From positions 1 to 63,073 of the forward strand of contig JAQMWT010000607.1 of the NCBI GenBank assembly GCA_029834535.1: a stretch of DNA of 63,073 bases, read 5' to 3'. Source of the stretch: Chrysophaeum taylorii. Its lineage: Eukaryota > Sar > Pelagophyceae > Pelagomonadales > Pelagomonadaceae. A program made the position numbers and the translations under genes. Under the pieces are notes generated by a model, which saw only the letters and a program-made list of their open reading frames with translations, had not been told where the DNA came from and made no database searches. The number at the start of each line of letters is the position of its first letter. Positions within the stretch are counted from its first letter, which is position 1. Positions 14,253-61,689 of this stretch are shown here, piece by piece.

Positions 14253-16415
14253 CTAAGCGGGGAGCGTCTTACCATCGACAAGAACATGGAGAGTGTTCTG
14301 GACAGAGTCGTACGGTGGAAGAGTAGCAGAAAGAGTAACTTGGCGAGATGGCGGTGGAGAAGAGGTTGAGTGAACACCGTAGGCGTTTTTGAACTTGTGG
14401 GATAAATTGCGTGGAAGGAGCTTCGAAAAATGATCAGCGACCTGGTAGAGAGTAGGACACCAGCGAGGTCTAATGATCGAGTTAGCTTGGTAGTCACGAA
14501 TGCGAAATTCTCGTAAGTTGATATGACGAGAAGGAGCACTGACTTTAGGATGATTAGCGACGTGTCGTGCGCTAGCGTTGTCAATAAGCAGGGGGATAGC
14601 GTGAGCTTGATCACACGAAAACAGATAGGGGTGGGAGGAGAAAAGCTTGTAGAACCAGTGACATTCAGCGGCTGCGCTGGCGGCGATGAGTTCAGCTTCC
14701 ATGGTGCTCTTGGCAGCGAGAGTCTGGCGTTTGCTAGACCAAAATACGAGACTGCCAAAGACGAATATACATGCACCAGAATTGGATCGTAAGCGAGGGT
14801 CAGAACGATCAGCAAAGCTTGCATCAGTAAAACACATAATAGGTGAACGAAGATGATGCAGTTCAGGATAGTGAGCGATCAGATGCTGAATAAAGGGGGT
14901 AATAGACGGGCTGTCGGATGAATAGTCAAGGGAATCATTCGGAGTGCCCTTTAAATAGCGAAGTAAAACATATAAGTGCAGAAGATGGGTTTGGTCAGGG
15001 TTGTGCATCCCTTTGCAGCATTTGTTGCACAAGGTGGTGATGTCCGGTCGACATGTGACAGACAAGTAAATGCTGGTGCCACAATAGAAAGGGAAGTTTT
15101 GGCGTAATACATATAAGGTAGTAGCCAAGTCTGAGAGAAGTTTAATAGAAGGTTTTTGGACGAGGATGTCCGAATAGGGGACGTCTAGGCTATGTAGATT
15201 GAGCTTATGCTCAGCAAGCATCTTGTTGATCTTCGCTGCAACATTCATAGTGAGATGACTAGCGGATACATTGTAGTGGACATCGATGCCAAGAAAGGAT
15301 CGGATGTTGTCATGCCATGTACCCTTGCCATATTCGGTCTCCAGTGTGGTGCGAAGAGACGCAATTTTGGCAGTGTTGGTACCAGTGATCAATAGGTCAT
15401 CGACTGAAACGGATAGTAATACCCATTGGTTGATAGATCGATCCCAATTGATATAAAGACAAGTATCGACTTGTGAGCGTTCGAACTCATGCTGTCGAAT
15501 AAATGAGTCGAGCTTAATATTCCATAACAAAGCTGACTGTTTGAGGCCATAGAGAGCCTTGCCGAGTCGGAGAGCGAGCTTCGACTCTGGATGGTTCTTC
15601 TGTATCTGCTGGACAAGATTTGGAGAGACACGTATTCCTCGAGGAAAGTCGATCCATACCAGGCGATCGAGTGCGGATTGGATGAATGCCTGAGGAATGT
15701 CCGCGTGCGCGACAGGGAGCTTGTGCTTCACAGCAATGGCGAGCAGTAGCCGGTTGGTAGCGAGCATTGCGGTTGGTGAGGATGTGGCATAAAAGTCAAT
15801 ACCTACACGTGCCAAGAAACCTCGGGCGACTAGACGAGCTTTATAGCGGTCTGGAGTGCCGTCAGCAAAATACTTGATCTTCAGCACGAGCTTTGTCGTG
15901 ATGGACGAACGGTCTGGTGGTAAAGGCTCAAGCTTGAATACACCATTGGAGCACAATCCTTCAATTTCCTGGCGAATCGAAGCGATGTGCTTTAACTTAT
16001 CTTCTTCGTTGTGTCCTTTAAGTTCGACAATCTTTGCAGGCTCATATACGATATCTTCGGCGGTCACAAGTTGTAACACGACGTGATCGATGTGCTGCAA
16101 ATCATAGTCCATGACTTCTTGTAGAATATCTTGATTTGGATCACTTTGACTTAGGAAGAGGTGTCCGAGTTCGCCAGAATCATGCATGAAGGCATGCCTG
16201 TGACGAGAAGCTAGATGGTAGTGTTGATGCGCGGAGATGTCCAATAAAAGAGAGGAGCCCATACAACAGAATTCTTTGTTCCATTGACGCGCAGAGTACT
16301 CTGCCGGTGACATTTCGTCATGGCACGTGTAGTTCTCGAGAACAGAATTGTCGTTGTCAAGGTGGTCAACCAACACAGACGAGTGGTATGGCTTCCTGGG
16401 GAAGTCAACGTACAA
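14253..16415 (-). CDS. Copia reverse transcriptase and RNase H
   Basis: An open frame of 720 codons. RT shows the Copia signatures KARLVARGF, HADIPQAF, LYGLKQSALLWN and the catalytic SVDDLLITG (usually YVDDLL). RNase H follows with CFTDASFAD, KRQTLAAKSTMEAELIA and HINLREFRIRD. The frame is intact and the active-site aspartates are present, so this part looks functional even though upstream parts of pol are broken. The stop at 14253 is close to the end of the converging small ORF. Confidence 0.92.
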   Translation of the reverse strand: MYVDFPRKPYHSSVLVDHLDNDNSVLENYTCHDEMSPAEYSARQWNKEFCCMGSSLLLDISAHQHYHLASRHRHAFMHDSGELGHLFLSQSDPNQDILQEVMDYDLQHIDHVVLQLVTAEDIVYEPAKIVELKGHNEEDKLKHIASIRQEIEGLCSNGVFKLEPLPPDRSSITTKLVLKIKYFADGTPDRYKARLVARGFLARVGIDFYATSSPTAMLATNRLLLAIAVKHKLPVAHADIPQAFIQSALDRLVWIDFPRGIRVSPNLVQQIQKNHPESKLALRLGKALYGLKQSALLWNIKLDSFIRQHEFERSQVDTCLYINWDRSINQWVLLSVSVDDLLITGTNTAKIASLRTTLETEYGKGTWHDNIRSFLGIDVHYNVSASHLTMNVAAKINKMLAEHKLNLHSLDVPYSDILVQKPSIKLLSDLATTLYVLRQNFPFYCGTSIYLSVTCRPDITTLCNKCCKGMHNPDQTHLLHLYVLLRYLKGTPNDSLDYSSDSPSITPFIQHLIAHYPELHHLRSPIMCFTDASFADRSDPRLRSNSGACIFVFGSLVFWSSKRQTLAAKSTMEAELIAASAAAECHWFYKLFSSHPYLFSCDQAHAIPLLIDNASARHVANHPKVSAPSRHINLREFRIRDYQANSIIRPRWCPTLYQVADHFSKLLPRNLSHKFKNAYGVHSTSSPPPSRQVTLSATLPPYDSVQNTLHVLVDGKTLPA

Positions 16416-16430
16416 GAGTTCCGCGTCGGT

Positions 16431-17051
16431 TTATCTCTGCAAATCCAGTGCGGTGCCGCCCATGATACCATAGTCTTGTGTGGTACTTGCTAGGAGACAT
16501 CCTTTCGGGACATCATTAGGCGGCTTGGCATCTCTTCGAATGTTGAGAGCAGAGGCAGTGCTGGCGGCGTGGCCCTGGTGCAGAGCGCTGACACTTATGA
16601 GGAACATCAATGTACTGGACATGTTGGCTGTGGCGTGAGCCGTGGATTGCTCCTGCTGGTATTTCCAGTTGCGACCATACTCGGAGGCGAGAATGCGTCT
16701 GGTGGAGAGTTTCCCATCGTCAACACGTTTCACGATGTAGAGTTGATCCTTAGGGATGCGGAATCCACGTTTGTCATTGAGATCTGCCTTGAGTTTATCG
16801 CTCTGGTTGCGATGCACGAGAACTGGAGTAAAACCTGAATCGTCGAGAACAACCTCTAGGCGATCTTTTCGTTTGGGCATCGGAATGCTACCTATCCGGT
16901 GGAGGTGGCCGGTTGAGGAACGAAAAATCCTGTTCAGGCGTCGCGTCGCTGACGGGACTTGAATCTGCAGCGGGAGTTGGATCCAGTTCTTTGTGGTTGT
17001 CGTCATCGCTAGGTTGGTCATCGTGCTCGTCTTCGTGAGTCTCGCCCTCAT
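16431..17051 (-). pseudogene. Copia pol: integrase C-terminal/linker region
   Basis: A 206-codon frame in the same phase as RT, separated from it by a stop near 16431 and from the integrase core by another near 17091. It is Pro/Ser/Thr-rich at the start. It then has a lysine- and aspartate-rich stretch (KDRLEVVLDDSGFTPVLVH) like the integrase C-terminal region of Copia. It connects integrase to RT. Confidence 0.6.
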
Positions 17052-17090
17052 TTTTTGATTCCTGTCTAATTTCCGGCATTTGCTGTTCGC

Positions 17091-18185
17091 TTATGCCTGG
17101 TAGTGGATCCTCTTGTCTGCCTTTGGTGGGATCTGTGCAAGTGCTTTGATCCGTTCGAACTCATTGTTTCGGTTGACTGGCATGTCCGCGTCGACGTGAA
17201 AGTCGTTTGAGGTGACGTTTTTTCCATATCGCCCTTGATGTACAAGCAGGATAGTGCTGTGAACATCACGGATAAATCGGTCCGTACCGGGGAGGATCGG
17301 GCGATAGTTGTTACTATGAAAGTAAGAGGCAGAGACGCTGGAAGGTTCCAGTTTGCGACTTTGAGGGTAGACAAAAGTGACAGGTTCGCCAAAGGGGGGA
17401 AGCTTCAAGAGCGGTGCCGTGGGCGACATGATACGCCGGGGAACGGTGCGTGGCATGTGCGTGCGCGAAGGCGGTCCGTGAGAGCGCTGGTTGTCGGCTT
17501 GGATCTTATGCAGGAGAGCAAATGGGTGATAATACTCAGCTGCAATAGACTTTCCTTCGACGCGTACACTGCGAAGGTTGAGAAGACGAACCACAGTGCC
17601 GCGGGTGTTTTCCTTTATGATGTTTTCGGCAAAGTTCCGCTGGTGGAGGTGGCGACCAAGGATTTGGAATTGGAGACGAAGCTGCACCTTGAGAGGGTGG
17701 AAGGCTTCGGTGCGAAAAGTCGAGAATGCGTCAGAGGATATGATGTTCACATGGACATCGAGTTCGACTTTGATGACGTTAACCACATAGAGGATGCCGG
17801 CCATAACATCTTGTGCGTCTAATTTCCGTAGGAAATAGACCCATTTGTGTGCTGAGATGATACACACGAATTGCACGATATAGCGAAATCCGCCGTAGCA
17901 CTTGTGGATGCTCGGGTAGGATACATCCATGTGGAGGTGCTGGCCAGGAGCGTGGGCCAGTTCGTCCTGTGACCAGGAAATGTTCTTGTGACGGAAGCTG
18001 ACATGCGATTGACAGCGCTTGCATTCGCTGCAGTCTTGCAGATACCGATCATCACCTGGGCGGAGATTCGTTACATTAGCGGCAATCGTGCGGCGAAGAA
18101 TCTCTGGTTGCTGGTGGTGTGTGCGGTGCCAGCGAGTGACCAAGAGCACTCTTTTGGCGTGCTGAGTGGTGCCGGGCTGGTGCAA
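17091..18185 (-). pseudogene. Copia integrase
   Basis: The N-terminal zinc finger is visible as an H-x3-H-like start followed by CSECKRCQ. The catalytic core has the three acidic residues: HMDVSYP, then IISSDAFSTFRTEAF, then RNFAENIIKE. Stops at both ends separate it from the preceding methyltransferase region and from the linker to RT. Confidence 0.8.
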
Positions 18186-18287
18186 GGGAGGCAGTGCGGC
18201 AGTCGAAGCGCTGGGGGGGCTGGGTCGCTTGTCGACTCGGATCTTAGCAACTGTTGCCTTGGCAAGAAGCGTCTCGAGGTTTGTCGA

Positions 18288-20568
18288 TTAGCTTGGTTTG
18301 CGGATCGCATCATGGTGAGCATCTGCAACGGCATTGAAGAGGGAGGTGAGGTTTAGGTCTTCCTCTGCTAGGAGACGGCTGGAGATGGCTGAGAAGAATT
18401 CTGCAACCTGGTAGATGTCTCCAGGGCTGGGGATGCCATTGCGTATTGTAGCCCATTCGACGTGAAGGTTCACGTGGTGGTGCGATTCGTGGAATGCGAG
18501 GACCGCGCTGTACTTTGCCTGCAACATGTGGTGCGGGACGGCGTTGGCCAGTGCCTTGAACGCGAAGTACGGCGGGTGCTGTTTGAACAGGCGGAGCAGT
18601 TCCGGGTCCGAGTGGTGTCCAAATTTGGCGATTTCGTTGAGGGTCGCGTAACGTATGTGGTCTGGCGAGATCAGCAGCAAGGCATTGGAGTAGCTCGTGT
18701 TGGTTGGGTACGAGCCAGTGACCGAGTAGCACTTGGTGCTCTTCTGAAGTGTGTCTCCGATGTGGCCGACATAGTCCGCGTAAGTGGGACGTGCTTTGGA
18801 CATTACGAGTCCCCTGGGGTCATCGAGAGAAATTCGCCCTTGTGAGTCGATCGCGGCAAAGCCAGGATGCGAACGATTCATATAGTGGACCCAAGTGGAC
18901 GGGCGCGAACAGCTGTGAGCGGCGGCCAAGGAGGTGGTGTAAGCGACGACCAGAAAGGCGGTGCCCTTGGGAACATCCAGGGAAAAGGGGTGCGTTGGGG
19001 AGAAGACTACGGGTTGATGGGAACAGTCGAAAGTCTTAGGGGGCCTGGAATGGAGGGTGAGGGAGGCGCGGGAAGTAGCCGCAGGCGACGGCAGTAGCGG
19101 CGGTGCTGGTGATGGCTCCATCCAAATGGTAAGCACATTGAGACTCTGATGCATAAAAACAGCGGATGGTGTTCCAAGCGGCGAGAGTGGGGTGTTGCGA
19201 CAAATGGTTGTGCAGGAGCGTGAAAACCAGTAGGTTGGAAATGGACGCCATGGTGGCGTAGGGGGTGCCGTCGGCATCGAGACCGAGGTCCGTGAAGGGC
19301 TTGTGGAGACGTGCGAGCATTTGGCAGATGCGGGCATTCTCGGAAATCGAGAGTTTCGAGGCGTTTGCGGGCTTGTAGGAGTAGGTGGCCTTGTGCTGGT
19401 AGTAGTCCAATGTGGAAGGGGACACTGTACCACGAAGGGCGGGTTTGGCGATCCAGAGATCGTCAGGGGTGGTGTGACTGGGATCCAGGAGAGGAACCAT
19501 GCTCGGAGGCGAGGTTAACCAAGGGGAGGCGGTTTTCTCGAGGTTGTAGCCGGTGAGCGGGTGCCGGGCATACACAGCGAGATAGCGTGTCTTGCTGATG
19601 ACATCACCAAAAGCAGAAGCATTGTAGACGCCGGAATGGCGGAAGTAGCCTAAGCGGTGATAACCTGTGGCGAGTTGAGCATACTCATGTTGAGTTCGGG
19701 GGTTGGGAGGGGCGTTCTCGACAATGGTATAGGTCGGGAGCGTGCAACGAACGAAGCGGAGTTGTTCTTTGACAAAAAGGTCGGCGGTGACCGGAGTGGC
19801 ATAACCGTCGTAGTCCTTCATTACACTGAGGTGTTGGCAGGGCAATGTAAAAACTGTCAGGCCGAATGTAGGGAGTCGGATTTTGCCGGTTTGGAGTGCA
19901 GCATTGAGTTTTCTGAGGTCCGCATAGTGCTTGGCAAGCGGGAAGAGGTGTTGCGCACGGGTGCGCAGGATATCGTTGATTTCACAGGTGACTACGACAG
20001 TTAGGCGTTTGTCGAAGCGTTTGCGAAAAGTGTCGAAACCTTCCTGGTGAAGTCCACCTGCAATAATGGCTGTTTTGAGCAGAGGGGTTTGTGTTTGCAC
20101 AGAGAGGTCTGCGGAGCCATTGAAGGCGTAGTGGACGACAGGAGGTTTGATGTTGAGCAGTTCGGTAAGATACGTGGAATGATTTTGTAACTTCGCGAAG
20201 TCAAGCGTGTGCGATTGTGAGCGTGTCTTTGCGATATGCTGTGTGATGTGTGCAATCTCACCGTGGAGTGGCAATCGTGTTCTTGTGAGAAAGCTAACCA
20301 CAGTGGCGAATGTTTTTCGGGGCTGGGATGGCAGGGACAACAGGCCGCTAGGCTTGCGAGCGGCAAGTACGACGGCGGTCTTTCCTAGAAGTGTTGCGTA
20401 ATTGTTGGGGTCTGAGGTCGAGGATTTTAAGAGCTCATACAGGTAGGGCTCGTGGGGCAGTGGCGGATCTGCTGCTTGTACATGCAGAGCTTTGAGCTGG
20501 GATGTTGCAAGAACTCGAAGACCTTGTCGAAATTGCGGGACTACCATAACTACGAGATATACAAGCAA
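18288..20568 (-). pseudogene. Cytosine-C5 methyltransferase-like domain in Copia pol
   Basis: About 700 residues separate protease from integrase, far more than in normal Copia. In 20568-19036 I see a degenerate motif I (YAFNGSADLS, 20101-20130), motif IV with the catalytic cysteine (TLPCQHLS, 19825-19848), motif VI (YTIVENAPP, ~19705-19731) and motif VIII (AFGDVISKTRYLAV, 19573-19614). The frame then shifts. In 19433-18288 the end of the domain appears as IRYATLNEIAKFG and AFKALANAVPHHML (18522-18563), matching motifs IX and X (E..R.QGFP; GNAVPP). The order and spacing fit a DNA methyltransferase with a long target-recognition region. The shift near 19040 makes this copy defective. Confidence 0.75.
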
Positions 20569-20957
20569 CCTGTGTCGTCTTTTGTATCCTTTGAAGAGAG
20601 ACCTGCAGCCTGCAGATACAACGGTTTAACACCGATAAAGTGACTGGAAAGATTGCCTTGTCCCATATGAATGGTGTGTTCGGGAATTCGGCGAATGGTC
20701 TCGGGAACAAAATTTAGAATTGTGCGCGCAAAGCAGAAAGATGCGCCAGCGTCAATCAATGAGGTTTTAGTGCCGGGGCCATTGCAGCCGTGCAAGGAGC
20801 TAGTTTTCTTTGAGGTCTTGTTTGGAGTGTAAGTTGCACAAAGAAAATCTGCGACTCGTGTGGAACTAGTGGATGAAGTCGGGAAGTTCGACATCTGGAG
20901 GTTTGGTGCCTGATGAAGTAAGGTGTGGTTGTCGGCACAGGCGTCGTCGGCAACCAT
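20550..20957 (-). pseudogene. Copia aspartic protease
   Basis: The motif SLIDAGASFCF fits a retropepsin active site, with DAG in place of D(S/T)G. An LPETIRR-like strand and a glycine-rich flap-like GQGNL follow. The frame then shifts to 20568-19036, whose start (VPQFRQGLRVLATSQL) resembles the post-protease segment of Copia (VP...NLLS..QL). The domain is short and partly decayed. Confidence 0.6.
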
Positions 20958-21146
20958 CAGGGGAAAAGCCGACTCTTGTGGAGAGCACGCAGGTAGTCAT
21001 TGTGACGTTTGGCGTAGTCTTCGTCGGAATCTTCTTCATCTTGGGTTTCGGGAATGGCGTCGGCGTAGAGGTCTAGCTGGCCTTTGTCGTCATATAAGCC
21101 GAGATGTCCTTTGTCGTCTTGTTCATCGGCTTCGGCTTCGTCCTCA

Positions 21147-22883
21147 TCAGGTTGATCGTCTGGGGGAGCGGACGTTAACATCTGGAGGAATTCGGGCGGA
21201 CGTTAACATCTGGAGGAATTCGGCGGCGTCAGTTTCGGCTTCGGAAAGAAGTATCTCGTCGGAAATGGTGGTGATGAGGTTGATGAGCTTGTTCGTATGC
21301 TCGGAGCTGGACGTATGTTGGCGACCGGCTTGGCTAAGGTTCCGTGTGGTTTGGAGCTTGCGACGGACTTCACGAAGGGGGACCTTGACGCGTTGGTCTG
21401 GAGTAGACGGTTTGGGTGGATGAGGTTGTGTTGGGAAGGTGACCTTGCGAAGATGCGGGTGCTCGCGTTTGTCAGGGGTGACAGGAGGAGCGCGGGGACG
21501 GTGCTTGTTCTTCGGTGGGGTGACAGGGGTGGCCTTGGGTTTAGGACTGTCATTGACGTCGTAGTAAGACGGGGAGCAAGGATTTGGTGGCTTTTTGCCT
21601 GGAGGGTGCTTTTTGACGTGTCGCGAAATTTGCTTCTTGCGGTAGTCGTGGAGTTGGTGAATAAGGTCATTGTCTTCCTCTTGATCAAGATTGGCCTCCG
21701 TGAGAAAAACGGCGGCGGGGTCGGTGTCTTCAATGGGGTCCGGTGGGGTGTCGTCTTCAGATGGAGTGGTGTCATCATCGTCTTCGGTGAGGTGGAGACC
21801 ATGACGGCGGGAGCGAAAGCGGGGGTTGTTTTTATCCTTTGCTGGCAGACGACCAAAGTCCGCAACGAAGCGCAATGGCTTGAAGTTAAGAGTGGGGTGA
21901 GGCTTGAGGTGAGCCCAAAAGTTGCGCTCAAACGCTGAGATGACGGTGATGCGAGCGACGAGCTTAGGAAGGTGGTGGATGGCGTCCTTGTCTTCGTCGA
22001 GTAACAGCGAATCGTTGGGAGTGCGCAGACAGCTAGCAAGACGTGCAAAGCCCTTGATGTGTGTTGGGGCGCGGGAGTCAAGCAAGCTTGGGGGGTACTC
22101 GAAGCGGAGAGTTTGGTGAATTTCTTTGAGGATCTTGTCATCAGGAAGTTGGAGAGAAGCGTCCGTGGTGATCTGGCGGCGTTGCTGTTGGACATGGCGC
22201 ATGTAGTCGATGTAGTGAGCTGGCTCATGGATTTCAGGGTTGAACGGCGTGTCCATAAAGGCATTGTAAACATAATGCGCATGATGGATGTGGTTCTGGC
22301 CCGCATGCTTGTCGTGCGCGAGGCGAACTTGAAGCACGAATTCGAGTCCTATCGGGTAGGAGGATCCGAGTGCGTCGATTTCGTCGTATGCTGGGTGCTT
22401 GACGGAGTCGCTACCGGCATGTAGGAAACGGCGAAAGAGGGGGTGTGCGGTCTCGCGGAGATATACGATGAAGTCGGCTTCTTTTCCTTGGAGATGCGGT
22501 TGAGTGATCGGATATAACTTGCCTTTTGTCATATCGGTTGGGCCCTTGTCTTGGGCTTTGAGTTCTTGGAGCTTTGGCTCGTAGACGTTGTCCAGGAAGT
22601 GCTTGCCGAACTTGCGGTAGACACCCTTGTAGTAGACGTAACGGCCTTGGGAATCTTGCGTGTTCCCGGCGGTAGAGTGGTTGTCGGGGTCCTTGTCGTA
22701 TTCGTCGATACTATGGCTTAGGAGAGCGCCAGCGAGATCGTTAGATCCGCGCAGGACGGATTCCCACGTGTAGAAGCCCTGTAGGAAGTACTGAGTTATA
22801 CCTGTTTCAGGCACCAGATGTTCGAGGAACAATTGCACGACACGAAACGAAAGCATTGGCGGTGTGATTTGCGCCGAGTCCAT
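21147..22883 (-). pseudogene. Copia Gag
   Basis: The ATG at 22883-22881 starts a ~570-codon Gag with a helical N-terminal half and a basic, proline-rich C-terminal third (PPGKKPPNP, KPKATPVTPPKNK). I see no CCHC zinc knuckle. A 28-bp tandem duplication at about 21170-21225 (GGACGTTAACATCTGGAGGA repeated) shifts the frame, and the acidic tail continues in the frame of 21181-20957. An upstream in-frame ATG at 23030 lies inside an LTR fragment and is unlikely to be the real start. Confidence 0.65.
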
Positions 22884-22925
22884 GGACTTTAGAACGGCAC
22901 TTGGTGGGTCACTAAAGGTGCTGAT

Positions 22926-23021
22926 CCTTGTGTAGTAGCATGTGGCAAGCGGAATGGTCTGTACACGCCTAAGACTGCACGCAGTCTCTACCATGTACCC
23001 GGAGAGGGTCAAATCTCTCCA
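22926..23021 (+). repeat. 3' terminal fragment of LTR family L1
   Basis: These 96 bases match the last part of the LTR at 23960-24361 (CTTGTGTAGTAGCATGTGGC to AAATCTCTCCA) and the equivalent part at 1133-1229 on the minus strand. The sequence to its left is the Copia gag leader. No initiator-tRNA primer site follows. Confidence 0.8.
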
Positions 23022-23959: not shown

Positions 23960-24361
23960 GGTCCAGAGAGCTACACTATTGTGTGTACGGCACTGGAACT
24001 TCTCACTCCTTTCACACCTATCTCCACAAGAGGGTTTTCTCTCCGTAATGCGGCTTTCCCTCTTTCCTTCCTTACCCTTCCGCCCTTATATCTCAGATTA
24101 TGAAGAATTAGACCTGCAGTTCACTTCCAACAAGGACTAGACCTCCAGGTGCGTACCGTCAGGTATGGAGTTGTCTGTTTAATTAATGGAGGCTTCATTC
24201 CTCATTGTCAGTGTGAACGCTTCTATGGGACTTAATGTCCTTAAGGAGTTAGGCCTAAATCCCTACCTTGTGTAGTAGCATGTGGCAAGCGGAATGGTCT
24301 GTACACGCCTAAGACTGCACGCAGTCTCTACCATGTACCCGGAGAGGGTCAAATCTCTCCA
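23960..24361 (+). repeat. LTR, family L1 (3' LTR)
   Basis: A full-length partner of the LTR at 1133-1537. It is preceded by TTGAGGGGG, a likely polypurine tract, which makes it a 3' LTR on the plus strand. It ends in CTCTCCA. Confidence 0.75.
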
Positions 24362-24681
24362 CCGCCGAAGTCGGCAAAGTGCGAAACTTTCTGGGGTTTG
24401 AGATTTGGGACCAAGTGGATATGGGGTTTGAGATTGGGACCAGGTGAACTTACTGGCCTGCACTTGACTCATTCGTGCCGGACAGAGAACGAAGACGTGG
24501 GGCACCCTTAGAAGGACGACTGTTCGCGATGGTCCGACGAAGCAGCACGAAAGGGGTTTGAGATTTGGGGCCGAGTGGATGTGGGGTTTGGGATTTGGGA
24601 CCAGGTGAACTTACTGGCCCGCACTTGTACTTGTAAGCCTTAATTAAGCCCCTGGTAAAGAACCAGATCTTAATCTAGACA
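24362..24681. repeat. Opposed Helitron-like right ends
   Basis: Two partial right-terminal segments on the plus strand end at about 24469 (GGCCTGCACTTG) and 24626 (GGCCCGCACTTG). Copy B begins as the reverse complement at about 24682 (ACAAGTGCAGGCCAG). I see no gene here. Confidence 0.6.
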
Positions 24682-25690
24682 AGTGCAGGCCAGTAAGTTC
24701 ACCTAGTCCCAATTTCTAACCCCAGCAAGTTCACCTGGTCCCAGTAAGTTTCATATAAGTTCACCTGGTCAGTAAGTTCACCTAGCTCACACCAACTCCT
24801 TTGAGCTCGTCGCTCTCGCCTCCGCCAATCTAAGCTGCTTTGATCCGCACGCGCCGCCAACCTTTGAGTTTACTCTAAAAACCCTTTACTCTAAAAACCC
24901 CAGTATGTTCACCTGGTCCCAGTTTCACCTGGTCACTCAGTTCACCTAGTCCCAATCTCAAACCCCAGTAAGTCCACGTGGTCCCAGTAAGTTCACCTAT
25001 AGTGCGCGTGTAGACACCGGGAGGGGGCTTATCGGTATTGCGCAGCACGTGTGGGGTAGGGTGGAGTCGTCGACCCAGATGAGTATATCCTCGGGGATGC
25101 CGATCGACAGAGAGACACGTAGAGCTGGACGTGGCAGAAGACGGGCTTGGGAAAGAGGACGCCGACCTCGCGGGGCGTCTGGCCCTGGCTCTTGTTGATC
25201 GTTTGGCGTAGGCGGGCCTTACGGGATACAGGTTGGAGGAGCCTCGGTGACAACGACACGATCGATCATGTAGCTGGTACCGTTGCAGTGGCCGTGCGAC
25301 GGGTCGAGGTTTCGAAGACCTTAAGCTCGTGCTCAAAGTCAGCATCCCGTTGGTTGTCAGGGAGTTGAAAACTCTACTGTAAGAGCGAGGCGTCGTCTTC
25401 CGACCCCGCCTAGTCAGCCGAAAAGAACTCCGACGCCTCGTCTCCGGGAAAAAAAGACCGCGGTCATGCGCGCGTTGTCAGCATCGACAACATCGTTTCG
25501 ACGGGGCGTGAGAATGGCGCGCTGAAAGAGCCGCCGCGGGACGTGGAAATAGTCTGCGAGGTCGCCGTAGACGGCTTGGAGGATCACTGTCTGGCTCTCG
25601 CGCCTACCTGATCCTTACTCTCGCGCCTACCTGATCCTTACCCTAAATCGGGGGACAAACAGACAAACAAACATCTGTCGATTAGTAGTA
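24682..25690 (-). mobile_element. Helitron-like element B
   Basis: Minus-strand copy of the same element type. It runs from CCTTACTACTAATCGACAG (read leftwards from 25690) to the GCCTGCACTTGT end at 24682. It carries helicase fragments including RQTINKSQGQTPREVGV and VQLYVSLCRSASP (25259-25029). The tail consists of CAGTAAGTTCACCTGGTCC repeats. Its right border abuts element C directly. Confidence 0.65.
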
Positions 25691-26790
25691 AGGACAAGTG
25701 CAGGCCAGTAAGTTCACCTAGTCCGAATCTCTAACCCCAGTAAGTTCACCTGGTCACCTGGTCCCAGTAAGTCCACCTGGTCAGTAAGTTCACCTTGTCC
25801 AAATCTCTAACCCCAGTAAGTTCGGCGTAAACCCACTCGTGCTCACACCCACTCCTTTGAGCTCGTCGCTCTCACCCCCGCCAATCCAAGCTGCTTTGAT
25901 CCGCACGCGCCGCCAGCCCTTGAGTTTACTCTAAAAACCCCAGTAAGTTCACCTGGTCTCAGTAAGCTCACCTGGTCACTATATTCACATAGTCCCAATC
26001 TCTAACCCCAGTAAGTTCACCTTGTCCCAGTAAGTTCACCTACAGTGCGCGTGTAGACGCCGGGAGGGGGCTTATCGGTATTGCGCAGCACGTGTGGGGT
26101 AGGTGGAGTCGTCGACCCTAACGAGGATATCCTCGGGGTTGCCGATCGACAGAGAGCCACGTAGAGCTGGACGTGGCAGAAGACGGGCTTCGCCAAGAGG
26201 ACGCCGACCTCGCGGGGCGTCTGGCCCTGGCTCTTGGTGATCGTTTGGCGTCGGCGGGCCTTAAGGGATACAGGTTGGAGGAGCCTCGGTGACAACGACA
26301 CGATCGATCATGTATCTGGTACCGTTGCAGTGGCCGTGCGACGGGTCGAGGTTGCGAAGACTTTAAGCTCGCGATCAAAGTCAGCATGCCGTTGGTTGTC
26401 AGGGAGTTCAAAACTCGACTCTTGAGAGCGAGGCGTCGTCGTCCGACCCAACCTAGTCGGCCGAAAAGAACTCCGACGCCTCGTCTCCGGGAAAAAAAGG
26501 CCGCGGTCATGCGCGCGTTGTCAGCATCGACAACATCGTTTCGACGGGGCGTGAGAATGGCGCGCTGAAAGAGCCGCCGCGGGTCGTGGAAACAGTCTGC
26601 GAGGTCGCCGTAGACGGCTTGGAGGATCAATGGCTGGCTGGCTCGCGGGCCTACCTGATCCTTACCCTAAATCGAGGGACAAACAAACAAACATGCTCCC
26701 CACACACACCCCCCTCTTAGCAGTCGACATTTAAAGACAAACAAACAAACAAACAGACAGACAGACAAACATCGGTCGATTAGTAGTAAG
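25691..26790 (-). mobile_element. Helitron-like element C
   Basis: A minus-strand copy in direct tandem with B, with the same junction sequence (TTAGTAGTAAGGACAAGTGC) at both borders. Helicase fragments lie at 26630-26500 (RAILTPRRNDVVDADN) and 26301-26100 (RQTITKSQGQTPREVGV). A piece of the non-LTR element 3' end (26693-26740) sits in the CAAA/CAGA repeats near its start. Confidence 0.65.
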
Positions 26791-26862
26791 GACAAGTGCA
26801 GGCCAGTAAGTTCGCCAGTAAGTTCACCTAGTCCCAATCTCTAACCCCAGTAAGTTCACCTG

Positions 26863-27219
26863 TGTGGCGGTAATAACCATCCCCCCCCCACTTATGTGCC
26901 TGTTACCTGCCTGTTACCTTGAATTTGGCGGTGTCATGCTTGACACCCACACCTGCTTCTCCAAGGATACTCCTGTACCGAGGACCTGTGTTGCTCTTGC
27001 CGATCTAGCATATCTTGCTGGATCTCCCATTGGAATCTATCGATTCTTGCTGGTTCCTTGAAATTACCCTCAATTGAATGTTCGACAGCATGGCGTGAGC
27101 GGAGTGTGAGCGCTTGGTTGGACGTGTGGTGGAACCACCCGTGGTTCAGGACAGTTGAGCGGTCACGTTGTGACCGACGGTTAGACGAAGAGGGGCGGGT
27201 GAGATGAGTTTCCACCACA
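26863..27219 (+). repeat. Gypsy-2 5' LTR
   Basis: A 357-bp LTR, TGTGGCGG to CCACCACA, nearly identical to the Gypsy-1 LTRs. The presumed primer site starts at TGGTCTCAGAAACGG two bases downstream. Confidence 0.92.
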
Positions 27220-27683
27220 GGTGGTCTCAGAAACGGGAACTGATAGTTTCCGGGGTTGTTGTTACGCGAATCCCGGACTGTCAGTCTCCCGCGCCCGGCG
27301 GCGAATCGGTGTTCAGGCTTTGAGCGAGTGCAGAGCCGACGTGTTTGTGAGTGCGGTTCCGGCGAATCGAGGGTGTCACTCCGATACGCGAAGCGGAACA
27401 AGCGTTCGGCGTGTTCGAACGTGAGCGGACGTTGTCGTGAGTCTCGAAAAACAATCGCCTGGGGAGCGGGGAGTAAGCCATCGCTCCCAGAACGGCAGAC
27501 CGGGGAGGACAACCATATCCTCAAGACAACCGAGAAAAAAAAAAAGAGTTCGCCTGGGGGAGACAGCCATCTCCCAGAACAGGTAGGCCGGGGAGGACGA
27601 CCATATCCTCTAGCAAACCGGCTCAAGCGCGCAGTCAAGCAGTAGCCGGCAAATTGCTGCTTTGACGACAAAAACAAAATTAG

Positions 27684-44716: not shown

Positions 44717-44756
<40 letters not shown>

Positions 44757-45859: not shown

Positions 45860-48800
45860 TAAAGCATGTTTTCTCACAACAGTCTCCGATAGGGAAGACC
45901 GTGCTACGACGTCTAAGACATTTTCCGGTCGATGAGCATGCTCTAGAACCACAGCCGGATGACGCCGTTGTAGAAAGCGTTCTTTATGCATCCGGGCGCC
46001 GAGTGGTGCATTGCAATCTCAGTGCGAATTATATCTACAAATCCTGGCAGTTCTCGACAACGGAGACAGCGAAAGTTTTGCAAGCGGAATGGGTGTCATT
46101 CAATGACCGCCGCCAGTACTGGCTTGCAGTTCTTGTGAATTCCGAATTGCTTGCACTGTTTGGTCCTGAAGGATCACATGTTGATATACCGCTGCCAATG
46201 CAAACAGAGTCTATCTGGCCATTAGGTACAGGAATTTTATTACAGCCACGGGAGCACCCTGCGGGTTCATCGGGTGCTGGCTTGATGCTTTCAAAGGTTG
46301 GAATCCTATCTCTTAGCCATCCACTAGATGAGCTCAAGCTGGTAGTGTGTGAAGATGGGACGTGGGCTTTCAGTAGCAGTGGCGAGCGTTTGCTTTATGC
46401 TGATGGAGATCAGCTTGTGACATGCAATGGTATCGTGCATTCCTTCTGGCTGATATATAGACAGAATGTCTTACACGGTGAAAACAATTACATGGAGGAA
46501 AAAGATGACATGGGTGATGATGAAAGGGCATCGCTCAAATCATCTGACTCTGGGTGTTTGCAGAGGCTGCCAAACCATGTCAGTTCCTGGCGTGGGGCTC
46601 GGGTACGCTCCGAGCATCATGAAGTCGACGTGACTTCGGTACATGATGCTGCTGATTACATTGTACGCCACTCGCACCGGTGCGGGCTGTCTGAACCAGC
46701 TCGGAAGATTTTTACAGCAACTGATATACAGGGAGCACAGCTTCTTTGCCTCCTTGTAGGTACTACGTTGATGGCTGTTGATCGGACGGGACAGTGTTGC
46801 TTCAAAATGACTGGTTGCTTGGATGCTGCGCCGGTCACTGCGATGCTTGACACGCCAATAGTTGATATCATCTTTTTACGAGATTGTGACAAGGACCTGC
46901 ATCTTACACGTGGAGACATCCCCATCGCCCGCCTGGATCCACCTGAAGGTGATTGGCACTTAGAAATGCAATTGTGTCGTAGTGGTGTGACTTCACGAGA
47001 TACCTGGAGTGAGTTAGAAGATGTCTTAGCACCAACTCCTGTTGCGTTGACTAACGTAGTGGCAGTGGGTGATGCAGTTGGCTCACGTGTTACACTCTTC
47101 GTGTGTGGTGATTCTACTCATGAGGGAAATGATTATGTTACTGGCTCAAATGAGTTCCGTATGATTCGAGTTGAAGTCTCTCTGAAATCGCCGAATCCTG
47201 GAGTACAGGTTTGCCTAGATGCGCTAGAAACTGAACTGGAGCCTTCCGTCTCTCTCGCAATACGGGTGGCCACGGTCACAGCTCGTGCAGAGGCATGGCA
47301 AACTTTCCGTTGCACAATGTTCATCTTGTTGGGGTTGCAAAAGCCATTACACTCGACTGATCCTTGGCAGGCCTTGCTCAGCAGTGATTATCACGCTCAG
47401 TTCGCTGGAGATTGTGACTGGCTCTTCCGTGATAATCCACATGGATGCAACAGTCCCTCCATGGTTCCCAATGTTCGCGAGCACACGCATGAAAGTGGTG
47501 AAGATATCATGCGATGCCTAAACTTCTGTGGCATTCAAAATGCTATCTTGGACTCGAGTGTCATTGTTCGATCTCTCCACCTTGTCTACGAAGAATGGAA
47601 GTTGAACCTGCTCACATGGAGACATGTTCGACCACTGGGTGTTTTCCTTTCAAAAATAAGTCTCGATTCTACTTACATTGTGCGATACAGACGGGATGTT
47701 CTTGGTGTAGATGTGATTGACACTATGGCTGACAAAGAATATTTCTTCTTACGATCTGATGTTCATGAATGGTTCAGCGCACTCATTAAGCACGGCCGGC
47801 CATCGTATGGACTAGAGACGTTACCGGAAACCTTACCTTGTGGGGCCAAAGCACCAGGAAACCGAGCACGGCGACTGGCGTCCATTTTCTCTGTGCTGGA
47901 TCAAGAAATCTTGGTTGATGGTGGCAATGTTGGTGAATTGGACACGGCGCGGAAACTTACGCAAGCCCTCGTGTATCAGAACTTCAATCAAACAGAGCTC
48001 GCGACATGGCCACCGGGCTTCTCATTGCCTATACATGATGCACTCATGGCGTGTCGGCTGTGCCCAGCCTCGTGTTGGCCGGTGTCTGCTTACATGCTCA
48101 TCGGGAGGCATGACCTGGCTTGCATACAGCGCAATGATGTCTGTGGTTGCGAATGGCTACCTCAGGAACAAATGCAGCAAGGGTATACGCAGTGTACACA
48201 AGTTACAGGGATGCGAGAATCGATCGAATTTCTAAAACGTACCAGTTCTCACAACAGGTGCGCGGCTTGTTGTTTCATGTGCTCGCTGTGGGCTTGCTGT
48301 CACTTCGACTCAACCTTAGGGATGCTAACGACCCACCAGGCATCCTCAAACCTTCGTGTGTTGATGATAAATACGATGAAGCTACTCCCCCGCATGGTGA
48401 CGATGACGGCTTGCGATTTGCAGTTTTGTCGTCATCATACGTAGCAGACCCTCAAATGGCAGAAGTTTGTCGACTATTTCAGTCTTGGCGTCCTGTTTTT
48501 TTTCGTGTCGAGAGGGCACCCGAGATGTCAGATCACGATTTTGAAATGCGCAAGCAAGAAAGACTACTGCAGGTTTGTATGCGTTCTTGTGCCACCCCAT
48601 GTGGCAGAGCCATGCTGACTATTGGCTCTGTGTCGCCTAAGCGGACTCTAACAGAACCTCTTCCAATTCCAAGAATGTGCCTCTCCGGCCGGACACCACC
48701 TTCCAGCGCTGTGGTGTCGTTGGATGCATCTGCTGTTGAGAGGCTTGGCAACTGGTTCCATTTTCACAATGGTGTAGCTGCTGGTCTCAGACTGTGTGAG

Positions 48801-51482
48801 AAGAGTACCAACATCGCGATGTTTGAACAGGTGTCAGCTCTTGACGCGGAATCTACATCAAGAACGAGGTCAGTAACACGAACTTGGGTCCTGTACAACC
48901 GACCAGAAGTACCATCTTCCGAACACGGCGGGCTTCTTTTAGCCCTCGGACTACAGCAGCAGCTACATGTCCTAACGATGACAGATCTTTATGAGTATTT
49001 AACTTTGGGTCACGATCCAACGACAGTTGGCATCCTATTAGGGATGGCTGCTTCCAAGATCGGGTCTGGTGATACTGCCGTTTCAAAAATGCTGTGTCTG
49101 CACATCCCTGCACTTCTGCCGCAGCCATTTGCAGACATGGAGGTGTCAGCAGTGGCGCAAACAGCTGCACTTGCTGGTGTGGGTCTCCTCTATCAGGGTA
49201 CCGCGCACCGGCTGATGGCTGAGTTTCTTCTGGGCGAGATATCGAGGCGTATCCCGTGTGATCACTCACGTGATCGTGAAGCCTATTCTCTTGCCGCTGG
49301 CATTGCACTGGGCATGGTCATCCTGGGCCTTGGCACCTCTCTTGACGCTGCAGGCCTTGGAGACATTGACATAGCTGAGCGTTTACATCACGCTATAACT
49401 GGTGGCAGAGAGAGAGCTCGGCTAACCTCTGATACCTCGCTACGCGATGGCACACGTCCGCACAGATGGCAGCATTATGCCAGAAACCATGATCCGATGT
49501 CCCTTGCGACGAGTAGAGTCCTACTTAGCCGTTCTTCTGGGGCGATCTATCAGGCCCGCGGTAGCTCAACGAGTCAGGATATTGGAAATAACGCGCGTTC
49601 CTCACGAATCAGTGAAGGTGAGTTCGTGAACACAGACATCACTGCCCCAGGTGCCATTTTGGCTCTTGGCTTATTCTTTATCCAGACTAATTGCCAGTCC
49701 GCGGCCAAGCGTCTTGATCTTCCGGACACACGCGTTCTCCTCGACACTGTACGGCCTGATTTTCTCTTGCTTCGTGTCGTGGCGCGGTCACTTATAATGT
49801 GGGATCATGTCTTCGCGTCACCTAATTGGGTCGAAAAGCAAGTGCCACGCGTAATTCTATCGTCAGTGAGTTCGCTTGTCTCCGACAATAGTATTGTTCA
49901 TTGTCCCATTGATGGTGTGGCACGACAGCGTGCCGAAAAAAGTAAGCTGAAAGCTTTCGATTGGGATAGTGTGCGCCAGGCTCACGCAAATATCCTTGCT
50001 GGAGCATGTTTTGCAATGGGCTTGCGATTTGCCGGTACCGGCAATGAAGCAGCAGCATTAACCCTGCAGCACTATTTGATGCATTTTAAGGCTCTTCGTT
50101 CAACGTTTGGCACAGGTGAAAACGCAAACATCCACCGTGCAGGTGACAGTGCTAACGTCCCAAGCAAATTTGCGCCTTCGGAAGCATATGCCGCTGAACC
50201 ACTTTTTGATCTTAGTGCCAGCACGAGGGCTCATACATCGGAGGCGAAAGCGCGTGCTTTGCGACCAGACCGCCCAACGGTCGAGATTGCATTAGGCACA
50301 ACAGCGATCGCACTTGGACTAGTCATGTGTGGTACTGGTGACAGTGGCTCTCTTCGCTTGCTTAGACAACTGCGGCGCCGACTAGACAAAGGTACAACGT
50401 TTGGCACGCACCAGGCACTTCATACTGCAATTGGCCTGTTGTTTATGGGCTGTGGACAGGCAAGCTTGGCTCGAACTAAAGAAGCTGTAGCTGCGCTTTT
50501 GTGTGCGTTCTTCCCAAGATTCCCTAAGAGTCCGGATGACAACCAGTACCATTTACAACCACTCAGACACCTCTGGGTTCTCGCTGTGAGTTGGCGAGGT
50601 CTTCGGACCTTGGACGTGGATAGTGGTCACGTCGTACAGGTTCCTTTGGATATTACGTTGAGACAAAGTGTGGACTGGGCGGCGCCGGCTTCAACTATAA
50701 GATGCATAGCCCCGTGTCTCATGCCCCCTCTGTGTGACATAGCTTCGCTCAGTGTAGCTTCAGCAAAGTACTACCCCTTTCACTTGGAAGTTGTTGAGAA
50801 CCAACAGCATGCAAGGGCCCTGCTTCGCCTCATAGTATTTGTTAAGCGTCGCGCCGGCCATCTGTCTTGTACTCTCAGTCCAGTTTCGTCGCGTGCGCCG
50901 TTGTCTGCTCCCGTGAACTATGCCGACATACCACTGCGTGTTTCGTGTGAAACCTCATGTGCAGCGGTGCTTGCCCGGTGCACGAATGATCCTGCAACAT
51001 TAATGTTTGCGCGTCTATTCTGCAATGAAGAAATACATCGACTTACCTCGGCCCACATTCGACCGCTTGGTGGTGCGCTGAGTGCCAGTACCTTAAATTG
51101 GAACGTGCATGTGCTTTATGAGTGTGTTGCTGCGGACAAGCAACACGCACTCACAATATACCTCCAATTACATCATTATGCGCAGCAACTCCGAACTTCT
51201 GCTTGCTCGATGCAAGCTTGGTCACTTCGTTTGTGTCTAGAATATTTTGATCCTGAAGCCCAACTGCGCCAACGTCTCTCGACACAATGGATTCTCCGGC
51301 CTGAATTTGTACAAACTTTGCGTGTCCATTTAGGTCGCGCATTTGAGGACGCAATCCAGGAACGGGCTATCTACACGCAGGAGACTTTGACGCGCCTGAT
51401 CGGTTGTCATCGAATTCTTGCATCAACGCTCATTCCTCGCTTCTCAGGTGGTTTGCGAAGTAGTCTCCGACCAAGCGGGTGA
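45856..51482 (+). CDS. APC1: APC1, anaphase-promoting complex scaffold subunit
   Basis: The largest scaffold subunit of the APC/C ubiquitin ligase, which triggers mitotic exit. The N-terminal part (residues about 75-210) has the APC1 beta-propeller signatures ESIWPLGTGILLQ and LSLSHPLDELKLV. The middle contains LSLPIHDALMACRLCPAS, AYMLIGRHDL, and after the intron APEMSDHDFEMRKQERLLQ, TEPLPIPRMCLSGRTPP and FHNGVAAGL. The PC-repeat core reads LGHDPTTVGILLGMAASKIG, HIPALLPQ, GVGLLYQGTAHR and REAYSLAAGIALGMV. The C-terminal part has NQYHLQPLRHLWVLAV and AGHLSC. Length (~1800 residues) is near that of other APC1 proteins. Coding is in two frames, 45856 to ~48190 and from ~48320 to 51482. Confidence 0.93.
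48143..48339 (+). other. Likely APC1 intron (limits uncertain)
   Basis: The APC1 frame changes between AYMLIGRHDL (~48090-48120) and the conserved APEMSDHDFEM (~48520). Two GT-AG solutions keep the reading frame. One is 48183-48319 (GTATAC ... CTCAACCTTAG). The other is 48194-48339 (GTACAC ... TGCTAACGACCCACCAG, with a yeast-like branch sequence). The region is a poorly conserved loop, so a plain frameshift cannot be ruled out, but a host gene this well conserved is probably spliced. Confidence 0.5.
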
Positions 51483-59189: not shown

Positions 59190-60374
59190 TTGGTCGCAGC
59201 AGAGCAGACCACAGCGGCGCCGATGAAGGAGAAGTTGACGGGAATGTCCGATTTGATGGGCGAGAAACGACCATTGCCAGAAGAGATAAAGGAGGAAGTA
59301 TATGTACCTCCGATTGAGAAGTGTCAGAATTTGTTGTCAGCGAAACTGGGGAATGAGGAAGCAGCCGAAGCGTCGAGCGCCAATATAGATTCAGAGGCGA
59401 GATGTGGAACGCGAGATATGGCAGCAGTGACGATGCAGATGCCGGGCGATGCGAAACCGGAGATACGATGTCATCACACTGCACTGTCGCCGAGCGATGG
59501 GGAAAAGATCGAGCAAGACCTCATCACCATTGGCTGCCTGGACCCTGGTACCCTTACGTTTATCGTTGGTCATATTTATAGACGACGAGACGGTCCGAAG
59601 TTTGCAAAGACTTTAGGCGTGGATGGAATGGCGGATGTCTCTTATATTTGTCGTGGGATGGTCGAAAAACTGGAAAAGGATAGCATCATCCTTGACCGGG
59701 GCGATCTTCCAATCGAGCGCACCTTGTACGGGTCAGGATTGAACAAGACGACTATCCACAAAAGGGTTGCATTGCGGATTGCGCTTGCGGACGACGTTGC
59801 CGTTCCAGTTGTTGCTATTGTGGCCGATACTAATCATCTATTTTTGCTGGGAGCGCGCGATATTCGGGTGTTTGGAGCCATAGTGGATTACCCGCGGAAT
59901 CGCATTGCGCTTCTACGCACACAAGTCGCTTACGGGCGCAAGAAGTTAAAGGTGCAGGATCGACGAGTAGATTCTCCGATTTTGACGTTCAGAACAACTT
60001 ATGACGAGAGCAATCCCGTGGTAGTTCAGGTTTATGGACAACAGCACCATGCGATGCAACAAAGCCTGAGCACAGTTGAGAACCGAGTCTACGCTCGCTT
60101 GTGCAAGATTGAAGACCTCCAGCGTCCACCGCCGAAACGAGCGGGAGCTTCGACGACTTGGGGAGTTCCTCCAGTTACGCCTTCTCAAAGTTCGAACAGC
60201 GATGCCTATGAAAGTGATAGCCTATGCTGCGCGCACGATGAAGGTCGAGCCTGGGCGCACCTACTGCGTGCCAGTCGCTCTTTCAGAGCCCGTGGAAACT
60301 GGGCAAGTTTTCGTTGCTACGTCTTCTGGGTACGAGCAACTCGGGGTAGTCGATGGAACGTGTTCTTCTCCTGA
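59190..60374 (+). CDS. Gypsy-3 protease
   Basis: The active-site strand is LGVDGMADVSYI (DGMAD at 59622-59636). Further features are the flap region (ERTLYGSGLNKTTIHKRV) and the C-terminal strand LFLLGARDIRVFGAIVDY, as in retropepsins. As in Gypsy-2, DGM replaces D(S/T)G. After ~60190 the homologous sequence passes to the next frame (60076-61689). Confidence 0.75.
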   Translation: MVAAEQTTAAPMKEKLTGMSDLMGEKRPLPEEIKEEVYVPPIEKCQNLLSAKLGNEEAAEASSANIDSEARCGTRDMAAVTMQMPGDAKPEIRCHHTALSPSDGEKIEQDLITIGCLDPGTLTFIVGHIYRRRDGPKFAKTLGVDGMADVSYICRGMVEKLEKDSIILDRGDLPIERTLYGSGLNKTTIHKRVALRIALADDVAVPVVAIVADTNHLFLLGARDIRVFGAIVDYPRNRIALLRTQVAYGRKKLKVQDRRVDSPILTFRTTYDESNPVVVQVYGQQHHAMQQSLSTVENRVYARLCKIEDLQRPPPKRAGASTTWGVPPVTPSQSSNSDAYESDSLCCAHDEGRAWAHLLRASRSFRARGNWASFRCYVFWVRATRGSRWNVFFS

Positions 60375-61689
60375 GGATCATGATAAATTCGCAGCTCGAG
60401 TGGCGATATCCTCTACCCAGGATGTGCCGACCGTGATCACTCAAGGTGAAGTTCTTGCTTTGGGCGATATTGTTCGTTTCGATGACGAGCTGAATGCTGA
60501 GACGGTCGCCGATTTAACGAAGGATGGTGAAGCTGAATCTAACAAGGCTAACCTATCATTCACTGTTTCGGTCGCAAGCCACCTTGCTCAAGGCAATGCG
60601 GCTCCCGAACTAATGCTTTTGAGCTCAGTGCAGAAGGCGTCTCCTTCTGCCGATAAGAAGAAGAATTCTCGTCAAGAATCGCTCGGTAACGACGATTTTG
60701 ACCGACGAACTGACGAGGAGGAAAAGAAATGCCGAGAAGTGACAGAAGGCGAGATTCGCCGAAGGTTTGAAAAGGTCCACTGGGTGCCGATCACGTATCG
60801 CAAGGTTGTGATGCTCTTCAGCGGCGCCGGAGGAAGTACTTTAGGACTGCAACGAGCGAACGAGTTGTGCGGGACGTCGTTTCGAGTCGTCCTTGCTCTT
60901 GACTCTTCAACAGCTGCCAACAAGGTTCATCAGAATAATTTTCCGAAGATACCTGTGGTCCAGCACACGCTCTGCGGACGATATGACTCGACCCTCCGGT
61001 TGATCAAGGCCTATTTGCCTGAAGCGGAATGGTCATCGTCGATGTGTATAGCGTCTCCACCCTGCGTTCATTCAGCACTCTGCAACTTGACATACAGAGA
61101 TGTTGGCAAGGGTGTTACGGCCACTAGCTGGACGATGAAGCTGTGCAAAATGGCTGGCTCCATGATGTGGCTGATTGAACAGGCGGCGTCCATTATTTCG
61201 TATATAGCGCGCTTACACCCTTACGTGTACGTCGTCAATTTTCATGATATCACACCCACTTTGATTAGCTCTCGCGCGCGATTGTTGGTTTCCAGTCACC
61301 CACTGCACTTGCATGAGGCTCCGAAGACATGTGTGAACATGCTACAAAAATTTGCTGCAGCTTTAGGTTATGCTCATGAACGCCACCTTCTCCAGCTGAA
61401 TAGTCTTGGCTCGTCCCGAGAAGCAACAGATACGGCTTACACAGTTACTCGGGTTCCTCTTCGTTTGGGGCCGCATCGCTCGGACACTCAGCATTTGACT
61501 CTCAAGATGACGGCCGAGTTGCTCACGATGCCGGTGGATCACGATTGGGCTAGCTTGTCTAAGACAGATTCGTTCAAACATTTGGCGTCTGTCGTCCCTC
61601 CAGATACTCTTGCGATTTTAGCAGTCGATCTGCACAACTCCGTGACCAGAGGTTTCCGCCAAGTGGTGAAGTCCGGCCGACCGCGTTGA
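60076..61689 (+). CDS. Gypsy-3 beta-rich domain and cytosine-C5 methyltransferase
   Basis: Residues about 45-140 form a strand-rich linker (VEPGRTYCVPVALS, VITQGEVLALGDIVRF). The methyltransferase spans about residues 235-525. Motif I is VVMLFSGAGGSTLGLQ (60802-60849), the motif II region VVLALDS, and motif IV IASPPCVHSA (PPC 61057-61065). Next come YRDVGKG, motif VI as MWLIEQA (Glu at 61177), motif VIII SSRARLLVS (RAR 61273-61281) and motif X-like FKHLASVVPPDTL (61573-61611). Identity to the Gypsy-2 domain is high around motif I (NELCGTSFRVVLALDS against NEIYGTSFRIVLALDS) and low elsewhere, with catalytic residues kept. The frame is fully open and ends with a TGA at 61687, whereas in Gypsy-2 it continues into RT. 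Confidence 0.9.
   Translation: MRTESTLACARLKTSSVHRRNERELRRLGEFLQLRLLKVRTAMPMKVIAYAARTMKVEPGRTYCVPVALSEPVETGQVFVATSSGYEQLGVVDGTCSSPEDHDKFAARVAISSTQDVPTVITQGEVLALGDIVRFDDELNAETVADLTKDGEAESNKANLSFTVSVASHLAQGNAAPELMLLSSVQKASPSADKKKNSRQESLGNDDFDRRTDEEEKKCREVTEGEIRRRFEKVHWVPITYRKVVMLFSGAGGSTLGLQRANELCGTSFRVVLALDSSTAANKVHQNNFPKIPVVQHTLCGRYDSTLRLIKAYLPEAEWSSSMCIASPPCVHSALCNLTYRDVGKGVTATSWTMKLCKMAGSMMWLIEQAASIISYIARLHPYVYVVNFHDITPTLISSRARLLVSSHPLHLHEAPKTCVNMLQKFAAALGYAHERHLLQLNSLGSSREATDTAYTVTRVPLRLGPHRSDTQHLTLKMTAELLTMPVDHDWASLSKTDSFKHLASVVPPDTLAILAVDLHNSVTRGFRQVVKSGRPR

Follow-up and report, generated by a model that had tools for sequence, protein, structure and literature searches.

Background

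Retrotransposons that encode cytosine-C5 DNA methyltransferases (DNMTs) are known as long interspersed nuclear elements (LINE) and DIRS elements in Symbiodinium and as Gypsy elements in Klebsormidium (de Mendoza 2018, PMC5890265). Here we describe a 63,073-nt contig of the stramenopile Chrysophaeum taylorii (Pelagophyceae; GenBank assembly GCA_029834535.1, contig JAQMWT010000607.1; C607 in our numbering of the 70.8-Mb genome), hereafter the window, in which elements of both long terminal repeat (LTR) retrotransposon superfamilies, Gypsy and Copia, carry a C5 DNMT domain.

KnitGypsy-Dnmt3 of Klebsormidium nitens (PMC5890265) likewise has a C5 DNMT in a Gypsy-type Pol, with its key residues kept and a Ka/Ks below 0.2, but it belongs to another host lineage, has DIRS-like repeats where we find plain TG..CA LTRs and a 4-bp target duplication, and carries a DNMT3, whereas sequence comparison detects no affinity of the present domains to DNMT3. 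SymbioDIRS-Dnmt3 and SymbioLINE-Dnmt (PMC5890265) resemble our case in that hundreds of DNMT-bearing copies from more than one element class reside in one protist; they differ in being DIRS and LINE rather than LTR Gypsy and Copia elements, and in that Symbiodinium has several exon-rich DNMT5/6 paralogues. A DNMT3 in 'LTR Copia' elements is named in passing in PMC12344493; no stramenopile Copia figures in that passage, and the wording may be a slip, since it refers to the 2018 paper and the element described there is Gypsy. Sola1-1 of Ectocarpus (PMC12477816) is a stramenopile transposon with a DNA methyltransferase, but it is a DNA transposon whose enzyme is predicted to be of the bacterial N4C/N6A type, not C5. 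In titles and abstracts, mostly outside subscription papers and preprints, we found no description of a DNMT-bearing retrotransposon in a stramenopile or of one in an RVT_2 Copia element, and both the host and the Copia element look new as DNMT carriers.

C5 methyltransferase domains under purifying selection

A preliminary description of the window, made from its letters alone, had noted C5 methyltransferase-like domains in the elements Gypsy-2, Gypsy-3 and Copia, and all three indeed match the Pfam family PF00145: open reading frame (ORF) 31407-33218 of Gypsy-2 with an e-value of 1e-8, ORF 60070-61689(+) of Gypsy-3 with 4.7e-5 and ORF 19036-20625 of Copia with 1.2e-4 (frames taken from stop to stop; Pfam run on 30 of the 79 frames listed). 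The domain is far from confined to the window. Genome searches, which score the best candidates only and hence yield copy counts that are lower bounds with duplicate contigs included, recovered at least 136 matches of the Gypsy-2 type (128 scored of 921 candidates) at 123 places, at least 129 of the Gypsy-3 type (129 of 1015) at 129 places and at least 131 of the Copia type (122 of 586) at 122 places. No place is shared by the two Gypsy lists, and the totals are at least 252 Gypsy-type and at least 122 Copia-type places; the genome-wide survey that the preliminary description had proposed thus finds the domain at hundreds of places across the two superfamilies. Alleles are included in these counts because the contigs C10/C297 and C25/C521 look duplicated; the near-identical match positions on each pair suggest uncollapsed alleles in the assembly.

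For alignment, rows were picked from 30 Gypsy and 30 Copia copies plus Gypsy-3 and L067, a Gypsy-3-type element elsewhere in the genome, with stop-containing copies excluded. PF00145 was the sole Pfam family in the aligned domains, matching 13/13 Gypsy rows (alignment A1) and 14/14 Copia rows (alignment A2). Motifs were counted across the 30 Gypsy and 30 Copia copies with stops masked. The catalytic cysteine is present in all copies of both groups; the second arginine of motif VIII is kept in 30/30 Gypsy copies and the arginine of this motif in 28/30 Copia copies; and the glutamate of motif VI, canonically part of an EN pair in C5 methyltransferases, is found in 29/30 and 29/29, respectively. 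Motifs I, VI and VIII are near-invariant in both groups, and motif X is conserved in Gypsy but varies in Copia (22-30 of 30, depending on the position).

Pairwise dN/dS values (Nei-Gojobori method, pairs with dS >0.02) have a median of 0.10 for the Gypsy-2-type domain (255 pairs; 24 of 30 copies stop-free) and 0.25 for the Copia domain (231 pairs; 22 of 30 stop-free). Among co-linear Gypsy copies the domain shows a dN/dS of 0.157 (15 copies, 102 pairs) versus 0.28 in the next 900 nt (8 copies, 18 pairs): in this small comparison it is constrained at least as tightly as the neighboring sequence. Uninterrupted frames extend over 3,000 aa in L067 and 1,952 aa in L071, a Copia relative of the window copy. 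The match of all 27 aligned rows to PF00145, together with purifying selection, rules out chance or artefact. These are DNMT-bearing retrotransposons, with a C5 domain inside the coding region, its catalytic residues kept and its sequence under purifying selection. AlphaFold models of the domains are of low confidence, and Foldseek results with them are to be read accordingly: the Gypsy model (pLDDT, the predicted local distance difference test, of 40) recovered DNMT3, ranked first, and DNMT2 at the top among 350,542 chains (best e-value 5.5e-5; six at E <= 0.001), and the Copia model (pLDDT 31) had no match at E <= 0.001.

Position in Pol and number of captures

In L067 a protease motif lies at residue 993 and DNMT motif I at residue 1391, followed by reverse transcriptase (RT), RNase H and integrase. 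In L071 the order is gag, then protease (residue 81), DNMT (motif I at 314), integrase (1023) and RT; both proteases and the L071 integrase were read by eye. Both DNMT domains are thus directly C-terminal of the protease, and the superfamilies differ only in the later enzyme order. Because of this, position is unusable as evidence for independence, and the earlier argument from different pol positions falls away.

The Gypsy-2 and Gypsy-3 domains are ~40% identical (A1) and represent one common capture, so the three elements do not stand for three captures. Between Gypsy and Copia no profile similarity beyond PF00145 was found (hhalign probability 0.1% with shallow profiles; hmmsearch <0 bits). 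The best reference for the Gypsy profile is human DNMT2 (8.9 bits), and the Copia profile leans to DNMT1 (5.3 bits); human DNMT3A scores -2.0 bits with the Gypsy and -0.3 bits with the Copia profile. In a tree of 17 rows (six references, with five Gypsy and six Copia rows from the 27 aligned), a single branch sets off the Gypsy rows and another the Copia rows, with DNMT2 as the neighbor of Gypsy (92/93) and E. coli Dcm as that of Copia (83/86); the branches are very long and the program warns of possible false joining. Forcing the 11 transposon rows together changes the likelihood by -6.5 log units and is not rejected (approximately unbiased (AU) test, p 0.113).

One recent Gypsy-Copia transfer, the case which the preliminary description held would undo its proposal of independent capture, is ruled out by profiles that are mutually undetectable, and the best tree keeps the two apart. 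The proposal itself fares less simply: the separation in the tree favors it, and a single origin is not rejected. Separate Gypsy and Copia captures, two in all, are favored by these comparisons and appear likely.

As for the source, IMG/VR pattern scans for viral relatives yielded 25 and 6 stretches, of which none could be confirmed, and a word- and length-limited search of 5.8 billion proteins (MMETSP and EukProt included; 2114 and 2361 candidates) found no relative of either ORF at E<=0.001.

Elements with and without the domain

Coordinates of the elements and their domains are given in Table 1. The order of protease (by eye), RT, RNase H and integrase, the LTR pair and the target duplication identify the Ty3/Gypsy superfamily. 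The LTRs of Gypsy-2 have one difference per 357 positions, marking a young element. Self-BLAST aligns 3259-4311 of Gypsy-1 with 26863-27917 of Gypsy-2, and 4311-7982 with 33006-36653; bases 27918-33005 of Gypsy-2 (5,088 bp, the DNMT among them) are absent from Gypsy-1, which bears out the 5.1-kb deletion proposed earlier. Gypsy-1 encodes RT, RNase H and integrase (Pfam), and its LTR pair shows four differences, one a gap and two C/T at CpG. Its ends (3258-3262, 7982), unlike those of Gypsy-2, lack a matching target duplication, which suggests one-sided recombination.

The Copia element belongs to Ty1/Copia by its RVT_2 domain downstream of integrase (integrase, read by eye, precedes RT in L071). 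A protease is visible in L071, whereas the DNMT frame of the window copy shows none. A repeat search found no LTR pair of its own around the window Copia. A 196-nt same-orientation repeat (94%) lies on the 5' side of another copy, L072, and on the 3' side of L071, and from these two copies we infer a putative LTR-like repeat of ~195 nt. An LTR-like Copia repeat of 195-290 nt, present at 12457-12896 and in the flanks of L071 and L072, adjoins the window Copia in reverse orientation and contains direct and inverted segments nested within one another. A 96-nt exact repeat is also present upstream of the Copia gag (22926-23021, 24266-24361) and occurs inverted near the contig start (1132-1536; 87-99%).

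Among the matches listed, 80 of the best 150 Gypsy RNase H matches have a DNMT 1.6-2.8 kb upstream and 70 do not; among the best 150 RVT_2 matches (of 1670 candidates), two lie behind one of the listed Copia DNMTs, at 4.0 and 6.6 kb (C58, C613). A Copia of another family (L070, on C9) has RT and integrase signals, with PF00145 absent from both its long frames, so at least one DNMT-less Copia coexists with the DNMT-bearing lineage (L070 being the one examined of 148 other Copias). Given L070 and the deleted Gypsy-1, the domain is dispensable.

Table 1. Features of the window, with positions on the contig
Feature	Position	Strand	Evidence and remarks
Gypsy-1, LTR retrotransposon without DNMT, internal deletion	3258-7982	+	LTRs 3258-3616, 7625-7982; self-BLAST, repeats
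Copia copy, broken frames	about 14231-22920	-	93% identical to L071 over 8.7 kb; RVT_2 in 14253-16430
Copia reverse transcriptase (RVT_2)	15201-15944	-	PF07727 E 2.1e-40, residues 163-410 of ORF 14253-16430
Copia integrase region	17091-18287	-	by-eye reading; no Pfam match
Copia C5 methyltransferase domain, with intact catalytic PCQ	19198-20181	-	PF00145 E 4.3e-5; alignment A2
Gypsy-2	26863-36653	+	LTRs 26863-27219, 36297-36653; TG..CA ends; 4-bp target duplication CCTG on both sides
Gypsy-2 protease region, DGMAD motif	29957-30700	+	by-eye reading; no Pfam match
Gypsy-2 C5 methyltransferase domain, with intact catalytic SPPC	31440-32369	+	PF00145 E 1.4e-9; alignment A1
Gypsy-2 RT, RNase H, integrase	33014-36261	+	PF00078, PF17917, PF17919, PF17921, PF00665
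APC1, host gene	45817-51482		Pfam/frames
Gypsy-3, truncated by contig end	56703-63073	+	ORFs
Gypsy-3 C5 methyltransferase domain	60733-61653	+	PF00145; alignment A1
Gypsy-3 RT fragment	62285-62755	+	by-eye comparison with L067 RT; 72% DNA match to Gypsy-1 RT over 163 bases

Host methylation genes and the sequence footprint

A PF00145 search of the host gave 57 matches (123 scored of 474 candidates), comprising two host genes, DNMT2 and a likely DNMT5, 51 that coincide with the Copia matches and four more Copia domains (75-94% identical). The host DNMT2 matches PDB 1g55 (E 3.9e-39) and has an SPPC motif, as does the Gypsy domain. The DNMT5 (L002), a 2,086-aa open frame, scores 482 bits to PDB 7r76 over the DNMT and the following Cys-rich part; this entry is filed as 'DNA repair protein Rad8', and we take it to be Cryptococcus Dnmt5. 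One SRA-domain protein was found, and in it the SRA domain is joined to an AlkB-like 2OG-Fe(II) oxygenase and PHD-like zinc fingers (L068 511-3240; G000:C594:64137); it could be a reader-eraser of 5-methylcytosine. As DNMT5 and SRA are both present, the host has maintenance-type machinery. Searches for host DNMT1 and DNMT3 with the human DNMT1 and DNMT3A catalytic domains, which had no positive control and missed the host DNMT2 and DNMT5 too, found nothing convincing; a DNMT3-like match at C587 (12 bits, E 2.8) was discarded, as its frames when read hold no methyltransferase. A DNMT1-RFD search of the host was empty, its control being uninformative. Cryptococcus DNMT5 is reported to be without de novo activity, its preferences elsewhere being undetermined (PMC9246332), and in a diatom loss of DNMT5a lowers methylation (PMC9998398).

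The elements have observed/expected (o/e) CpG ratios of 0.98-1.34, except for one short LTR at 0.68, and the ratios of the other stretches examined are 0.88-1.46. C/T differences at CpG exceed those elsewhere 1.24x and 1.36x in nearest-neighbor pairs, and in disjoint pairs the excess of CpG transitions over pooled CpH is 1.2-1.3 (p 0.007 for Gypsy, 1e-4 for Copia); no periodicity of CG positions was seen. Because much of the sequence is coding, the footprint neither proves nor excludes methylation. The preliminary description had named CpG depletion in the elements as a check and had offered methylation-dependent defence or mutation as an example of a reason for the domains; DNMT5 and SRA are present, yet we see neither CpG depletion nor a strong CpG footprint, which leaves such a link conjectural.

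Proposed function and alternatives

LTR elements make double-stranded DNA inside the particle that holds Pol. Two SymbioDIRS DNMTs carry out de novo CG methylation in yeast (PMC5890265). On these two grounds our preferred reading, to which we give about an even chance, is that the Gypsy and Copia lineages each carry a full-length C5 DNMT behind the protease, probably captured separately, that methylates the element's own complementary DNA (cDNA). The domain, released from Pol or kept in it beside RT and integrase, would methylate cytosines of the cDNA in the particle or the pre-integration complex; a new copy would then enter the genome pre-marked like host DNA, and the host DNMT5 could keep the mark. 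The proposed benefits to such elements, namely resembling self and protection from deaminases (PMC5890265), would fit a methylation-maintaining host. Several observations weigh against own-cDNA methylation: motif VI reads EQ in Gypsy and motif I has the odd form AGGLHQEG in Copia; Copia dN/dS reaches 0.59 among the six closest pairs; CpG depletion is absent (o/e about 1.0-1.3), and the excess of CpG transitions is only 1.2-1.4, about equal to that at CpT; elements without the DNMT exist; and the yeast assay detected no methylation by the KnitGypsy or SymbioLINE DNMTs, a result called inconclusive there (PMC5890265).

Some of the same evidence bears on other explanations. The best reference of the Gypsy profile, its place in the tree and the SPPC motif shared with DNMT2, along with the RNA methylation proposed for SymbioLINE (PMC5890265), would suit domains that act DNMT2-like on RNA, either the primer tRNA or the element's genomic RNA, and aid priming or RNA stability; we consider this rather unlikely, as the DNMT2 placement rests on long branches and Copia leans to DNMT1 by profile and to Dcm in the tree. 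We judge it equally unlikely that both domains descend from one ancient capture of a retrotransposon DNMT and have diverged beyond recognition: their shared place just behind the protease and the unrejected joint tree agree with this, but hhalign (on shallow profiles) and hmmsearch see no similarity, the best tree separates them and motif VI is EN in Copia and EQ in Gypsy. Quite improbable, in our view, is that the domains have lost their methyltransferase function and now play a nucleic-acid-binding or structural role in Pol; the weak Pfam scores of the window copies (22-38 bits), the altered motifs VI and I and the lack of a clear mutation footprint point that way, against which stand the invariant catalytic cysteine, the motif VIII arginine and purifying selection.

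A further-reaching version of own-cDNA methylation arises because only DNMT2 and the maintenance-type DNMT5 were found in the host: the host may have lost its own de novo methyltransferases, leaving the Gypsy and Copia elements as the sole de novo source, which write on their own cDNA what the host only copies. We regard this as unlikely.

Other features of the window

A repeat of ~1 kb, tandem and dispersed (82-98%), occurs at 24672-26862, 36652-37555, 44561-45746 and 7983-8684, with Gypsy-2 inserted within it. The stretch 37907-44595 has a GC content of 64-68%, is C-skewed and holds long overlapping frames, with a Pfam match in none of the four scanned; at 8811-12398 lies a 1,195-aa open frame without a Pfam family. 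The best relatives of the host gene APC1 are MMETSP and metagenome proteins (top four rows 46-50% identical). Named matches among the first 20 of 120 rows listed are diatoms (Odontella, Fistulifera), Bolidomonas and Tetraparma, and the lower rows include Ectocarpus and Phytophthora, as well as plants, animals and others.

Implications

As far as the literature was searched, C. taylorii represents a third eukaryotic lineage with C5 DNMT-bearing retrotransposons, and its genome is one where both LTR superfamilies carry them. This raises the question of why elements would want a mark that usually silences them. With a DNMT5 and no detected DNMT1 or DNMT3, this host could be used to test whether transposons can lay down methylation and leave no more than its maintenance to the host.

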